Shown: piece by piece, positions 29,096 through 57,900 of the stretch
How positions within the stretch are numbered: the first letter of the stretch is position 1
Layout of the letters: every line of letters starts with the position of its first letter
From: Novosphingobium sp. 9
GTDB taxonomy: Bacteria > Pseudomonadota > Alphaproteobacteria > Sphingomonadales > Sphingomonadaceae
Direction of reading: 5' to 3'
Length of the DNA: 64,000 bases
Assembly: GCF_025340265.1 (NCBI RefSeq)
Contig: NZ_CP022708.1
Location: 891,501 to 955,500 of the forward strand
Program-made: the position numbers and the translations under genes
The notes under the pieces: generated by a model
What the model was told of the DNA's origin: nothing
The model's database searches: none
The model's input: only the letters and a program-made list of their open reading frames with translations

Positions 29096-29186
29096 GGAGC
29101 GGTGGCCGAGTGGTCGAAGGCGCTCGCCTGGAAAGTGAGTATACGTCAAAAGCGTATCGAGGGTTCGAATCCCTCCCGCTCCGCCA
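29096..29186 (+). tRNA. tRNA-Ser (GGA anticodon)
   Basis: 91-nt type II tRNA. The acceptor stem is GGAGCGG / CCGCTCC, with discriminator G and encoded CCA. The anticodon loop contains GGA, and a long variable arm (TACG...CGTA) and T-arm GGGTTCGAATCCC are present. It is the attachment site of the prophage that begins immediately downstream. Confidence 0.96.
29161..29186. other. Likely attL core in the tRNA-Ser 3' end
   Basis: The integrase gene starts about 150 bases downstream of the tRNA and phage genes continue to the end of the window, the usual P4-integrase arrangement with crossover in the tRNA 3' half. The matching attR is outside the window, so the exact core is not defined. Confidence 0.5.
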
Positions 29187-47266: not shown

Positions 47267-47376
47267 TGTTGATTGCCACTGAGAAGTGACCCGGGGCGCG
47301 TATAAATTACCGCTGAGAATTGACCCATGTTTTCCTCCCTTCCGGCTGCCAGTCGGAGGGTCTTGGAGTGATCGAC

Positions 47377-48897
47377 ATGGACTTATTCAGTGTGATCCGC
47401 CGGTGGCATTTCCGGCAGGGGATTTCCATTCGGGAGATCAAGCGCCGGACCGGCCTGTCCCGCAACACCATCCGCAAGTATCTGCGCTCCGACACGGTTG
47501 AACCCAGCTTCAAGGTTCCGTTACGGTCGAGCAAACTCGATCCCTTCGCAGACAAACTGACGGCTTGGCTGCGAGTGGAATCCAAGAAATCCCGCAAGCA
47601 GAAGAGGACCGCCAAGCAACTCTACGTTGATCTGGTGAAGCTGGGTTACGATGGTTCCTATAACCGGGTGGCCGCCTTTGCGCGGCGATGGCGGACCGAG
47701 CTTCAGTATCAACAGCAGACCAGCGGGCGCGGGACGTTCGTGCCTTTGGTTTTCCAGCCTGGCGAGGCCTTCCAGTTCGACTGGAGTGAGGATTATGCCG
47801 TGCTGGACGGCAAGGTGACCAAGCTGCAGGTTGCCCATACCAAGCTGGCACATAGCCGCGCCTTCATCGTGCGAGCCTATCTGCTCCAGACCCATGAGAT
47901 GCTGTTCGACGCGCTGGCGCAGGCATTCCGGGTGCTTGGCGGCGTGCCGCAGCGTGGCATCTTCGACAATATGCGGACCGCTGTCGACAAGATCGGGACG
48001 GGGAAGGCGCGGCAGGTCAATGCCAGGTTCGCCGCCATGGCCAGCCACTATCTGTTCGAGGCCGATTTCTGCAATCCGGCTTCTGGCTGGGAGAAAGGAC
48101 AGGTCGAGAAGAACGTCCAGGACGCTCGACGCCGGCTGTGGCAACCGATGCCCAGCTTCCGCGATCTGGCTGAGTTGAACACCTGGCTGGAAGAACAATG
48201 CATCGCCCAATGGGGCGAGATCCAGCATGGTGTCCTGCCCGGCACCGTGGCCGATGCGCACGCCGAGGAAGTTTCCTGCCTGATGCCGCTGGGCCGGCCC
48301 TTCGATGGCTTTGTCGAGCAGATCAAGCGCGTGTCGCCGACCTGCCTCATTGCCTTCGACCGGAACCGCTATTCGGTGCCTGCATCCTTCGCGAACCGAC
48401 CCGTCAGCCTGAGGGTCTACCCGGATCGTCTGGTCATAGCGGCCGAAGGTCAGATCGTGTGCGAACATCCCCGGCTCATCGACCGTTCCCATCACAAGCC
48501 GGGACGCACGATCTATGACTGGCGGCATTATCTGGCGGTGATCCAGCGCAAGCCCGGCGCCTTGCGTAATGGCGCCCCCTTCCTCGAGATGCCCGAAGCC
48601 TTCCGGCAGTTACAGGGCCATCTGCTAAAGCGCCCGGGCGGCGACAGGGAGATGGTCGAGATCCTGTCTCTCGTTCTGCATCATGACGAGCGGGCAGTGT
48701 TGAGCGCGGTCGAGTTGGCTCTGGAAGCCGGTGTTGCCACCAAGACCCACGTTCTCAACATGTTGCATCGCCTTATCGATGGCAAGGTGCCTCCAGCAGC
48801 GCCGATCGATGCGCCTCAGGCCTTGCGTTTGACGCAGGAGCCCGAGGCCAATGTCGTACGCTATGACAGGCTAAGGGAGATCCGCCATGCGTCATGA
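47377..48897 (+). CDS. istA: IS21-family transposase IstA
   Basis: 506 residues. N-terminal HTH ([23 protein letters not shown]), DDE catalytic core with FQFDWSED (first Asp), [12 protein letters not shown] (second Asp) and [13 protein letters not shown] (Glu), then a C-terminal Mu-type beta-barrel ([23 protein letters not shown]). ATG 47377 has GGAG 9 bases before it. The stop overlaps istB by 11 bases. It cuts and joins the element's ends. Confidence 0.95.
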
Positions 48898-49666
48898 TCC
48901 CGCCAGCGCGGCCATCGTCGTCATGCTGCGCAGCCTCAAGATGTTCGGCATGGCGCAAGCCGCTGGCGATCTGATCGAGCAAGGCGCGCCTGCCTTCGAC
49001 GCTGCCGTGCCGATGCTGTCTGGGCTCCTGAAGGCAGAGATGGCCGAGCGGGAGGTCAGGTCGATCGCCTATCAGATCAAGGCGGCACGCTTCCCGGCCT
49101 ACAAAGATCTGGCGGGCTTCGATTTTGCCGCCAGCGAGATCACCGAAGCCCTCGTACGCCAGCTTCATCAGGGCGACTTCATGGAAAACGCCGACAACGT
49201 CGTGCTGATCGGCGGGCCCGGCACCGGCAAGAGCCATATCGCCACGGCTCTGGGCGTTCAGGCTGTCGAGCATCACCGCAAGAAGGTTCGCTTCTTCTCC
49301 ACGGTCGATCTGGTCAACGCGCTTGAGCAGGAAAAGACCTTGAACCGGTCCGGCCAGCTGACAGAACGCCTGCTACGCCTCGACCTGCTCATCCTCGATG
49401 AACTGGGCTACCTGCCCTTCAGCCCATCGGGCGGTGCCATGCTCTTCCATCTTCTCAGCAAGCTGTACGAGCGCACCAGCGTCGTCATCACCACCAACCT
49501 GAGCTTCAGCGAATGGGCTGGCGTGTTCGGCGATGCCAAGATGACCACCGCGCTGCTCGATCGGCTAACCCATCACTGCCACATCCTGGAGACCGGAAAC
49601 GACAGCTTCCGCTTCCGCGCCAGCACCGCTACGCCCAAAGCCAGAAAGGAGAAGCCCGCACCTTGA
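48887..49666 (+). CDS. istB: IS21-family helper ATPase IstB
   Basis: 259 residues; AAA+ ATPase of the DnaC/IstB group with Walker [11 protein letters not shown], Walker [13 protein letters not shown], and sensor region [11 protein letters not shown]. It forms the oligomer that delivers IstA to the target. Confidence 0.96.
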
Positions 49667-54385: not shown

Positions 54386-54826
54386 ATGACCGACGCCCGC
54401 ATGGGTTCGGGGTCGCGCTTCTGGCTGGCCGACGCCAGCGCCGCCCTGACCGAACTTGACGAACTCACCTCGATCGGTTTGCCGAATCCGACTGTCGACG
54501 ATGTCGAGGCCACGCACATGAAATCGCCGAACCGCCGCCGTGAATACATCGCTGGCCTGATCACCGATGGCGAAGGCACCTTTGGCTTCAACCTTGTGCC
54601 CGGCAGCGATACCGATCTGCTCATTCAGGCGGCGCTCGAAGACGGCGTGACCCGCGCCTATGAGGTGGTCATCCCGGACGGCGCTTTTGGCCAGAGCTTC
54701 AAGGGCGAACTCGTGGTGAAGGGCTACGAGCGCACCGTTCCGATCGATGATCGCATGACCGCTACGCTTACCGTTCGGTTCAGCGGGGCCGTGACCATCA
54801 CGACCCTGACGGCAGCGCACGCCTGA
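54386..54826 (+). CDS. Major tail tube protein
   Basis: 146 residues; beta-rich fold with MGSGSRFWLADASAALTELDELTSIGLP, EATHMKSPNRRREYIAGLITDGEG. GGAG precedes ATG by 7 bases. Its stop overlaps the chaperone start (TGATG). Confidence 0.87.
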   Translation: MTDARMGSGSRFWLADASAALTELDELTSIGLPNPTVDDVEATHMKSPNRRREYIAGLITDGEGTFGFNLVPGSDTDLLIQAALEDGVTRAYEVVIPDGAFGQSFKGELVVKGYERTVPIDDRMTATLTVRFSGAVTITTLTAAHA

Positions 54827-55176
54827 TGGTCGCGCCCGTAGACAGCAAGGTTGAGCTGGAGGTTGAGGGCGAAACCTTCATCCTCCGGCTGAACTTTCGC
54901 ACCCTCGCCCTGCTGGAAGAGGCCGGGATGGACCCGTTCACCGGCGAAGGGTTCTCGCTTTCCACCGTGCGCCTCGCAATGATGTGCATGGCGCTGGCGA
55001 TCGAGGACCACGGCGAGATGACCGATGCCGAGGCGCTGGCGATTGTCGTGCGCAGTAACGGCCAGTTCGCCGAGAAGGTGAAGGAGCTGTTCGAGACCTT
55101 CGGAAGCGCGCCCGCCGATCCGAGTGCGGAGGGAAAGGCCAAGCCGACCCGGCGGAGGGCGAAAACCGCCGCCTGA
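54826..55176 (+). CDS. Tail assembly chaperone G (GTA-gp10-like)
   Basis: 116 residues: ETFILRLNFRTLALLEEAGMDPFTGEGFSLSTVRLAMMCMALAIEDHGEMTDAEALAIVV. It binds the tape measure protein during tail assembly. Near its 3' end (55131-55137) it carries GGGAAAG, read as G-GGA-AAG in this frame, the -1 slip site used by lambda G/GT. After a slip, translation continues in the next frame to 55475. Confidence 0.9.
   Translation: MVAPVDSKVELEVEGETFILRLNFRTLALLEEAGMDPFTGEGFSLSTVRLAMMCMALAIEDHGEMTDAEALAIVVRSNGQFAEKVKELFETFGSAPADPSAEGKAKPTRRRAKTAA
55131..55171 (+). promoter_or_regulatory. Programmed -1 frameshift signal
   Basis: Slippery heptamer GGGAAAG (55131-55137) in exact X-XXY-YYZ phase, followed after 12 nt by the perfect hairpin CGGCGG / CCGCCG (55150-55155 and 55166-55171). 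It links the chaperone G frame to the T frame. Confidence 0.88.
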
Positions 55177-55475
55177 CGGTTGATGATTTCTACGTGATGT
55201 GGATCGAAGCGGGGCAAATTGCTGACGCCTTCTGGCAGCAGACGCCCCGCTCGTTCCAGTTTGCCATGCGCGGCATCCGCCGTCGGATGAAGGCCGACGC
55301 CGAAAATCGAACCGCGCAAGCCTGGCAGACTGCAGCGTTCGTCGGATCAACTCAATCGAAGGGCGGCCTAAAGCCGCTCAGTCACTATCTTAAGCGCCCC
55401 GCCATAAAAATGAGCGATGCAGAAATGCTCGCCAATATGAGGGCGCTAGCAGCGCGCGTGAACGCCGCAGATTAA
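55137..55475 (+). CDS. Tail chaperone T extension (expressed as G-T fusion)
   Basis: The -1 frame is open across the slip site and reads QADPAEGENRRLTVDDFYVM then WIEAGQIADAFWQQT...RGIRRRMKADAE. It has protein-like codon use before its first possible start (GTG 55194), as expected for a frame entered by slippage. The fusion product would be about 216 residues: 104 from G and 112 from T. The T part contacts the tail tube or tape measure. Confidence 0.85.
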   Translation, partial: GQADPAEGENRRLTVDDFYVMWIEAGQIADAFWQQTPRSFQFAMRGIRRRMKADAENRTAQAWQTAAFVGSTQSKGGLKPLSHYLKRPAIKMSDAEMLANMRALAARVNAAD

Positions 55476-55519: not shown

Positions 55520-57900
55520 ATGGCCGAAGCAACTGTTCTGGGATCCCTGCTAATCCAACTGGGCATGGACAGCGCGCAGTTTGAGAGAGCAACCGCACGC
55601 GCACAATCCTCGGTGCAGAAGATGGCGCAGTCCATCGGCGCGCAAGCCAAGGATGTTGTCGACGCCTCAAACCGCATGGGCATCTCGATCACCTCGTTCT
55701 CGAACCAGGTTCAAACGCTTCAGGCGCGGCTCGACCCAAGCATTCAGGCATTGGCGAATTACCGCAAGGAAGTGACCTTGCTGAAAGAGGCGTACCGGGT
55801 TGGCGCCATTTCGCAGGATCAGTTCACCACGAATCTGCGGTCCGCAGTCCAGGGCTACCGTACCGGCGGCACGCAGGTAGTCGCATCATCCGGCGCGATG
55901 AAGGCCGGGATGCAGCAATTGAACTACCAGATTGGCGATATGGCCACCATGTGGGCGATGGGTGCAAAACCGCAGCAAATCTTCGCGTCGCAGGCTGCTC
56001 AGACGGTCCAGGCCATCACACTGATGACAGGCGGCGCAGGCAAATTTGCGAAATTCATGGCGGGACCGTGGGCATTGCTTTGCAGACTGCGGCCATCATG
56101 CTGTCAGCCATCATTCCCGCCTTGATGAAAACCGACGATGCCATGCATGAGGTCGAAGTATCGTCGAACAGCCTGGCGGATGCGCAGTCAGCTCTCGGCG
56201 ATATGTTCGACCTAGTGACTGGCAAGCTCAAAAAAAATACATCCGAGTTGCTGCTGAACGCCGAGGCCAAGGCGTACAACATGAAGATGGATGCGATGCG
56301 GATGCAGGATGCATCTGCAAAGACGCTCCGCTCAGCGTCTTCACGCTCGACTTCCGATGTGGTTTTTTCCAGTTTGGCAGCGGATCAGGTCGGGGTCCCT
56401 GGGTCTGCTGGCGAACGAAACACCAAAGCCGTTTCCGATTTCGTCTCGTCCTTCCAGAAAGACCTTGCCGCAGCGAAGACGGATCAGCAGCGGGCTGCAG
56501 TTGGCGACAAGGCTTGGAACCGCGCAGTAAGCATCGATCTCAAGGGGCTCTCGATAAGCCGCGAAGATCTGCTCGGGGCGATCAAAGATGCAGTTATCGC
56601 ACCTGGCCGAATGGGCGTCGCGGACGCAATGCTTTCGTCCATCAAGAATGGCGTTCTGGATCCATCCCTCCGCAACGATCCGAAGGACAAGAAGGCGAAA
56701 AGAGCACCGAAGGAAAAGACGCAGGAGCAAAAGGACGACATCTACCAAGATCAGCTGGACAAGCTGGCGAAGGACCGCGCCGACATTGAGGCGAACAACA
56801 ACCAGACGATCGAGCAGCGGTATCAGGCGCAGCTCTCGAAGATCGACGAGGACCTTGCCGCCTACGACCGCAATGTCGATCTCAACAAGAACCTTACCGA
56901 GCCGCGCCGGACAGAGCTCAAGGATCAGGCGGCCATCAACGCGCAGATGAAGCGCGACCAGGCCCTGAACGAGAAGAACCTTGCCGTCGCCAATCAGGGC
57001 TTCGAGCTCGACCAGAATAGCCTCCAGCAGCAGATCGACCAGTTGCAGTTGCAGGAGCAGCTGACCGACAGCACCGCCGACCGCCAGAAGATCGCGCTGG
57101 AAATTCTTGCGCTCCAGGACAAGCTGAAGGCTTCGGCTCTGGATCAGGTGATGGCGAACAACTCGCCTGACACAACCGCATGGCAGAACGCTTTCGACAA
57201 CAAGAACGCCCTGCAGCAATCGGCTGGCCAGCGCCAGCAAGTCGTCCTCAACCAAAACCTGACGCCGCTGCAGTCTTATGCCAAGGGCCTGCAAGCGTCG
57301 GTGACAAACATCAACGATGCGATGGAGAACATCCAGGTCGACAGCATCAATGGGCTGGTGGATGGATTGGCCAGCGCGGCGGCTGGCACGCAGAAGCTGG
57401 GCGACGTGTTCAAGAACGTGGCGCAGCAGATCATTGCCGATCTGGTCCGTATCCAGTTGCAAAGGGCCATCGTCGGCACGCTCGGCAACGTTCTTGGCAG
57501 CATCGGCGGTGGATCGACCATCGGCGGCCTGACGGGTTCGCAGTATACCTCGAGCCTATCATCCAGCCTCAGCTCTTACAGCAGCGGATTGTCAGTCAGT
57601 TTGGCAGGCGCACGCGCCAGCGGCGGACCGGTCATCGGCGGTCTACCGTACCTCGTCGGTGAGCGTGGGCCGGAGATCGTGGTGCCGGGCAGCAATGGCT
57701 CCGTGATCTCCAACGACAACCTCGCGAACATCGGCGGTGGCGGAGGAGATAACTACTACGGCGACACATACTACGGCCCCGGCGCAGACGAGTTCTGGGG
57801 CAAGGTCAACAACATCGGTTCGGCCAATGCCAGCTCCGCAATCGTGCGCGACAAGCAGCGACAGGCGAAGAAGGCCTCGCGGAGGTTCGGTAAGGCATGA
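55520..57900 (+). pseudogene. Tail tape measure protein, frameshifted
   Basis: The first frame (55520-56071) encodes a tape-measure N-terminus (MDSAQFERATARAQSSVQKM, NYQIGDMATMWAMGAKPQQIFASQAAQTVQAITLMTGG). It breaks after FMAGPW. The second frame (56071-57900) resumes with GIALQTAAIMLSAIIPALM, then coiled-coil rod sequence (DLAAYDRNVDLNKNL..., QQQIDQLQLQEQ) and a Gly-rich end with GGPVIGGLPYLVGERGPEIVVPG. Adding one G to GTGGGC (56068-56073) restores about 793 residues. Not a known slip site. Confidence 0.88.

Follow-up and report, generated by a model that had tools for sequence, protein, structure and literature searches.

A predicted programmed −1 frameshift in the tail assembly chaperone locus of a Novosphingobium sp. 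9 prophage

Organization of the G/T locus

The window, i.e., the whole stretch of 64,000 nucleotides of Novosphingobium sp. 9 DNA that was analysed, contains a set of phage tail genes in the order tail tube gene, G, T, and tape measure gene, with head genes (terminase, portal, protease) further upstream. The best explanation is that G and T are the tail assembly chaperone genes (G/GT) of a prophage of the siphovirus type. The following features were delimited (window coordinates):

54386..54826, forward strand, gene of the major tail tube protein, upstream neighbour (PF16461 Phage_TTP_12, E 3.4e-20; phrog_158 major tail protein)
54826..55176, forward strand, open reading frame (ORF) of G, the tail assembly chaperone, zero-frame product of 116 aa
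55131..55137, forward strand, slippery heptamer G_GGA_AAG in the exact X_XXY_YYZ phase of the G ORF
55137..55475, forward strand, T, open −1 frame extension, 112 aa past the slip
55150..55171, forward strand, candidate downstream hairpin with arms at 55150–55155 and 55166–55171
55520..57900, forward strand, tape measure gene, next to T on the downstream side (matches PF09718 and, short of the family cut-off, PF06791 with E 3.6e-5)

In the initial annotation, the GGGAAAG heptamer at 55131–55137 was said to lie in exact phase with the chaperone frame and the −1 frame to be open from there to 55475. Both statements were confirmed. Within the 116-aa ORF, the heptamer is read as G_GGA_AAG, with codons GGA at 55132–55134 and AAG at 55135–55137, and the ORF terminates at TGA 55174–55176. 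The T frame (−1) is open from 55059 to TAA 55473–55475 and comprises 112 codons past the heptamer. The first ATG, GTG, or TTG codons in the T frame past the heptamer are GTG 55194 and ATG 55197, and a CTG is found at 55173. No Shine-Dalgarno-like stretch was seen ahead of 55194 on examination by eye.

Protein families and predicted structure of G and T

The window's own G and T matched no Pfam family at E 0.01. Among the 32 members of the G alignment, six matched PF11836 Phage_TAC_11 (GTA-gp10) at E ≤ 0.01, the best with E 7.4e-5, and 11 matched phrog_2115 “tail protein” at the same threshold, at which no match to this family was obtained for the window's G. All 23 members of the T alignment, including T of the window, matched phrog_19318 (function unknown), and 10 of them matched PF09550 Phage_TAC_6 at E ≤ 0.01 (best E 1.7e-5).

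The predicted model of T was all-helical (mean pLDDT 86.4, pTM 0.54), with the first helix formed by residues 15–24. Comparison of this model with the PDB yielded 79 matches up to E 10, of which the best had E 2.3 and none reached 0.001 or below, and the sequence profile of T retrieved from the PDB one chain, at 0.69. The G profile retrieved TAL effector chains with whole-sequence E down to 2.7e-20; no single stretch of them passed, and they were judged to be repeat artefacts. Besides these chains, a ribosomal protein was listed at 0.58. By tblastn, the window's G and T had no match at E 0.01 in 50,697 phage records. Searches of genome contigs with G and T, and of viral contigs with G, revealed no relative.

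Chance expectation of the heptamer and the open frame

The probability of at least one in-phase slippery heptamer in the 38-codon G/T overlap was 0.014 with the ORFs of the window as the background (37 mechanical ORFs of at least 150 aa with mutual overlap of at most 60 bases, 16,038 codons, containing six in-phase X_XXA_AAZ or X_XXT_TTZ heptamers) and 0.023 when the codons of G were shuffled. From base composition alone, a −1 frame that stays open for 112 codons has a probability of approximately 0.03. These figures are modest and neither is decisive on its own; therefore, the case depends on the relatives and on the conservation of the site.

Conservation of the slip site among relatives

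A search for T gave a match in seven of 197 related genomes, its own included. With the T profile, a match was obtained in 16 of 396 genomes of the order, 5 of 385 of the class, and 18 of 397 of the family; these genome sets overlap, and viral contigs and phage records were searched as well. In total, 39 relatives were counted after the removal of own-genome copies (L002, L009, L073), a locus at the same place as L006 (L010), repeats of counted loci (L078–L081, L083), matches that were not T-like (L008, L024, L092), and matches with E near 1e-3 (L075–L077, L093, L094; the genomes of L075–L077 recur in the PF09550 set described below). L091 was kept in spite of its ambiguous site. One genome provides L088 and L096–L099, of which L088, L096, and L097 are near copies, and another is shared by L085 and L095. 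Whether the ORF preceding T was G-like was judged by eye from translations.

Alignment of the relatives, which had been suggested as a check of the heptamer and of the −1 frame, bore out the frame relation: T overlapped a G-like ORF in its −1 frame in 38 of the 39, and a candidate slip site was found where the frames change. In the remaining relative, L090 (1120–1815), a single frame covers G and T, and CGGAAAG occupies the position of the heptamer. An in-phase X_XXA_AAZ heptamer was present in 25 of 39 unfused loci, the window included, most often as G_GGA_AAC (16 loci) or G_GGA_AAG (6 loci), with G_GGA_AAA, A_AAA_AAC, and C_CCA_AAC found once each. Phage vB_PsuS_Psul1 has the same heptamer as the window, and its locus is annotated as two hypothetical proteins.

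A protein search provided 20 further G proteins with 51–79% identity to G of the window, one of them being G of L003, a relative of the same genus. At the position of the site, all 20 had Gly-Lys or Gly-Asn within an otherwise variable tail; the heptamer is deduced here from the protein level, except for L003, whose DNA was examined. Between T of the window and T of L003, the differences at codon positions 1, 2, and 3 numbered 22, 25, and 62 over 110 codons and thus fell mostly at third positions. In the 17 aligned codons ahead of the first start of T, the pattern was weak (5, 7, and 11), and these numbers are too small to carry weight.

Initiation of T

The earlier view that T has no start signal of its own agreed with both the lack of a visible Shine-Dalgarno-like stretch before 55194 and a comparison of 36 loci (window included). 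In 33 of these, the site was not followed by any ATG, GTG, or TTG before the conserved aromatic residue of T was reached (CTG, present ahead of this residue in 16 of the 36, was not counted as a start). The aromatic residue is Trp in 34 loci and Tyr in two. A start codon ahead of it was found in L018, L082, and the window itself, where it is represented by GTG 55194 and ATG 55197.

Alternatively, T could be a separate gene starting at one of these two codons, either coupled to the G stop or independent of it. Database predictions favour such a gene, as they begin T at a Met or a few residues before it, both for the window's own protein (P0001) and for P0002–P0004 and P0006, with a resulting length of 92–98 aa. 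Of the other T proteins found, five in number, three (P0002–P0004) have Met directly before the conserved Trp; P0006 also has Met ahead of Trp, as well as another Met upstream. However, if T started at 55197, its first predicted helix (residues 15–24) would be truncated, this Met is missing from T of L003, and the conserved Gly-Lys/Gly-Asn site would be left unexplained if T were a gene apart. The absence of a recognizable ribosome-binding stretch and of early start codons in 33 of 36 loci, CTG uncounted, also argues against it. Overall, we consider a separate T gene at this locus very improbable and prefer its expression by a programmed −1 frameshift.

Distant PF09550 loci

Separate initiation of T receives further support at a greater phylogenetic distance. 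PF09550 was found in 24 of 190 genomes of the class. A candidate slip site was present in the overlap in 14 of the 24 loci and absent in 10, the patterns accepted as candidates having been chosen partly after the data had been seen. A T start codon at or near the G stop was observed in all 10 loci without a site and in 8 of the 14 with one. A T start without a heptamer, the pattern that the initial annotation had named as contrary to its reading, thus occurred in 10 of the 24 distant PF09550 loci and was absent from the 39 closer relatives. Judging from these sequences, frameshifting and a separate start of T seem to occur side by side across the wider family.

In five of the 14 loci with a site (L103, L104, L106, L112, and L117), the site is CCCTTTC or CCCTTTT, located in phase (X_XXY_YYZ) just ahead of the G stop, and a possible T start is found there as well. 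L116 (G000:C1:811466–811630), one of the 10 site-less loci, belongs to the same genome as the window; its PF09550 gene has a possible GTG start overlapping the upstream stop and no candidate site.

Relatives without the heptamer

In the 14 loci without X_XXA_AAZ, the overlap contained NNC_CCT in 12 cases (L011, L015, L017, L022, L027, L086, L088, L091, L096, L097, L098, and L101) and G_GGG_GAA in two. GGGGGAA is a reported motif of annotated frameshifts in actinobacteriophages (PMC10885494). NNC_CCT was also detected in 4 of the 25 heptamer loci, in two of them exactly at the site, and its background in the part of G upstream of the overlap was 8 per 3,081 codon pairs. The resulting Fisher P of 3e-5 is just a guide because the pattern is post hoc (it was first spotted on L011, L015, L017, and L022, and the other eight loci came from later searches), three of the later loci are near copies, and the sites at L086, L091, and L101 were assigned by eye.

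The host has a gene of tRNA-Pro(GGG). We tentatively suggest that, in this chaperone family, the usual heptamer and a −1 slip site based on proline, NNC_CCU, could stand in for each other; at the latter, tRNA-Pro(GGG) would re-pair from CCU to CCC. Sites such as G_GAC_CCU and G_CGC_CCU do not have the form X_XXY_YYZ, and slippage there would proceed by the CCCU tetramer and not by tandem re-pairing.

Downstream hairpin and host tRNAs

A perfect hairpin starting 12 nt downstream of the heptamer had been noted in the initial annotation. Its arms are indeed present (CGGCGG at 55150–55155 and CCGCCG at 55166–55171, starting 12 nt past the heptamer), but its folding was not clearly above chance. 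Compared with dinucleotide shuffles, the 50 nt that follow had a z of −1.56, and 12 of 200 shuffles folded as well; z was −1.06 for 100 nt, −0.10 when upstream sequence was included, and −2.1 for the stretch starting 5 nt past the heptamer. Within the 50 nt, the optimal fold had a register different from that of the CGGCGG/CCGCCG hairpin. Across the 24 X_XXA_AAZ loci, z averaged −0.21 over the next 50 nt, with two loci below −2, and −0.68 when counted from 5 nt on. No consistent counterpart of the hairpin was found in the relatives. With z varying from −0.1 to −2.1 depending on the stretch, the hairpin is unproven as a stimulator. Stimulatory structures are common at chaperone frameshift loci but dispensable. 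We do not claim that unusual sites are followed by stronger structures: z below −2 was obtained for 3 of 7 unusual vs. 1 of 16 usual sites in the first set, which was suggestive, but the difference weakened with more loci (3 of 12 vs. 2 of 24 for the next 50 nt).

According to 46 tRNA matches, tRNA-Lys is encoded in the host genome by two genes with the anticodon CUU and one with UUU, and tRNA-Gly is represented by the anticodons UCC, CCC, and GCC. The tRNA-Lys(CUU) gene had a full-length match with 91–100% identity in seven of seven genomes, its own included, the anticodon being read in its own genome only. E. coli has a single tRNA-Lys, and the usual explanation of slippery AAG builds on it (PMC5009743). 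In the host, tRNA-Lys(CUU) is expected to hold AAG tightly; since the host has this tRNA of its own, the explanation given for E. coli is not transferable unchanged. With such a set of tRNAs, the slip of the P-site glycine may carry more of the work in the host, or the rate of slippage may be low.

Origin of the frame change and proposed expression of G and G-T

Two further explanations of the frame change were weighed. In the first, G-T was ancestrally one gene, its frame is interrupted by a mutation or by faulty sequencing, and nothing is programmed. L090 with its one-frame G-T and the adjoining tape measure gene, which looks frame-broken, are consistent with this, but a private error cannot yield the −1 relation that is shared by 38 of 39 relatives and accompanied by a slip-site candidate; we regard an accidental break as highly improbable. 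In the second, RNA polymerase and not the ribosome slips. Transcriptional slippage is indeed documented in bacteria, where it takes place on stretches of 9 A or 9 T (PMC5009743). At this locus it is hardly credible, as the site contains runs of three only and the relatives keep a codon-phased pattern and not a long homopolymer.

Taken together, the comparison makes it very probable that the tail chaperone gene of the prophage carries a programmed −1 frameshift at GGGAAAG. A frameshift at this heptamer in a chaperone locus is ordinary, well-known phage biology. Most ribosomes would finish the 116-aa G at TGA 55174–55176. A small share would slip by −1 on G_GGA_AAG, re-pair on GGG and AAA, and continue in the −1 frame to TAA 55473–55475, producing a G-T fusion of approximately 216 aa. 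As in lambda, G would be expected to coat the tape measure protein, with the tail tube protein recruited by the T part. The sequences themselves show the site with its phase, the open frame, the gene order, the conservation, and, for most relatives, the lack of an early T start; the occurrence and rate of slippage and the assembly roles of G and G-T are inferred.

Frameshift sites of this kind tend to escape gene annotation. T is entered as a protein of its own, hypothetical or unnamed, that begins at an internal start codon; this is a probable annotation error, which recurs in the relatives. The chaperone family keeps its product while the slip site and the downstream structure vary, and the tRNA-Lys set of the host is unlike that of E. 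coli. The family thus makes it possible to compare what bacterial ribosomes need for −1 slippage outside E. coli.

Comparison with known frameshift loci

The locus resembles lambda G/GT in its position between the tail tube and tape measure genes, and in a −1 shift that occurs late in G, towards its 3′ end. The heptamer of lambda G/GT is likewise GGGAAAG. The differences from lambda are the lack of a tblastn match of the window's G and T in the 50,697 phage records and the presence of tRNA-Lys(CUU) in the host, as compared with one tRNA-Lys in E. coli. The mechanism of lambda G/GT is described in PMC5009743, where G_GGA_AAG is listed as highly shift-prone in E. coli.

The PF11836 (GTA-gp10) and PF09550 families, matched by some of the relatives, show the same order, G followed by T; the window's proteins miss them at E 0.01. 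A −1 frameshift at GGGAAAC is predicted for gp18/gp19 of Burkholderia phage KL1 (PMC3483164). This is the commonest form of the heptamer among the loci compared here (16 of 39), the window itself having GGGAAAG. Unlike the window, KL1 has an intervening tail gene ahead of the tape measure gene (PMC3483164). No paper on the G/T locus of the Novosphingobium sp. 9 prophage was found among the literature search results.

State of the prophage

The tape measure gene of the window is split over two overlapping frames, 55520–56125 and 55951–57900. In the relative L003, the tape measure frame is unbroken across the fetched stretch (tblastn). The frame-broken tape measure gene may reflect a defective prophage or an error in the sequence. 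A second programmed shift in this gene was considered but is not claimed: on inspection by eye, the neighbouring AAATTTG did not fit the reading phase.

No direct repeat of at least 30 bases was found between 29000 and 64000 of the window. A tRNA-Ser(GGA) gene is located at 29096–29186 and may represent the integration site. Between the portal and head protease genes, the stretch 47320–49666 contains a transposase gene (phrog_1157) together with a gene of a DnaC-like ATPase, a pair that is presumably istA/istB of an IS21-type element.
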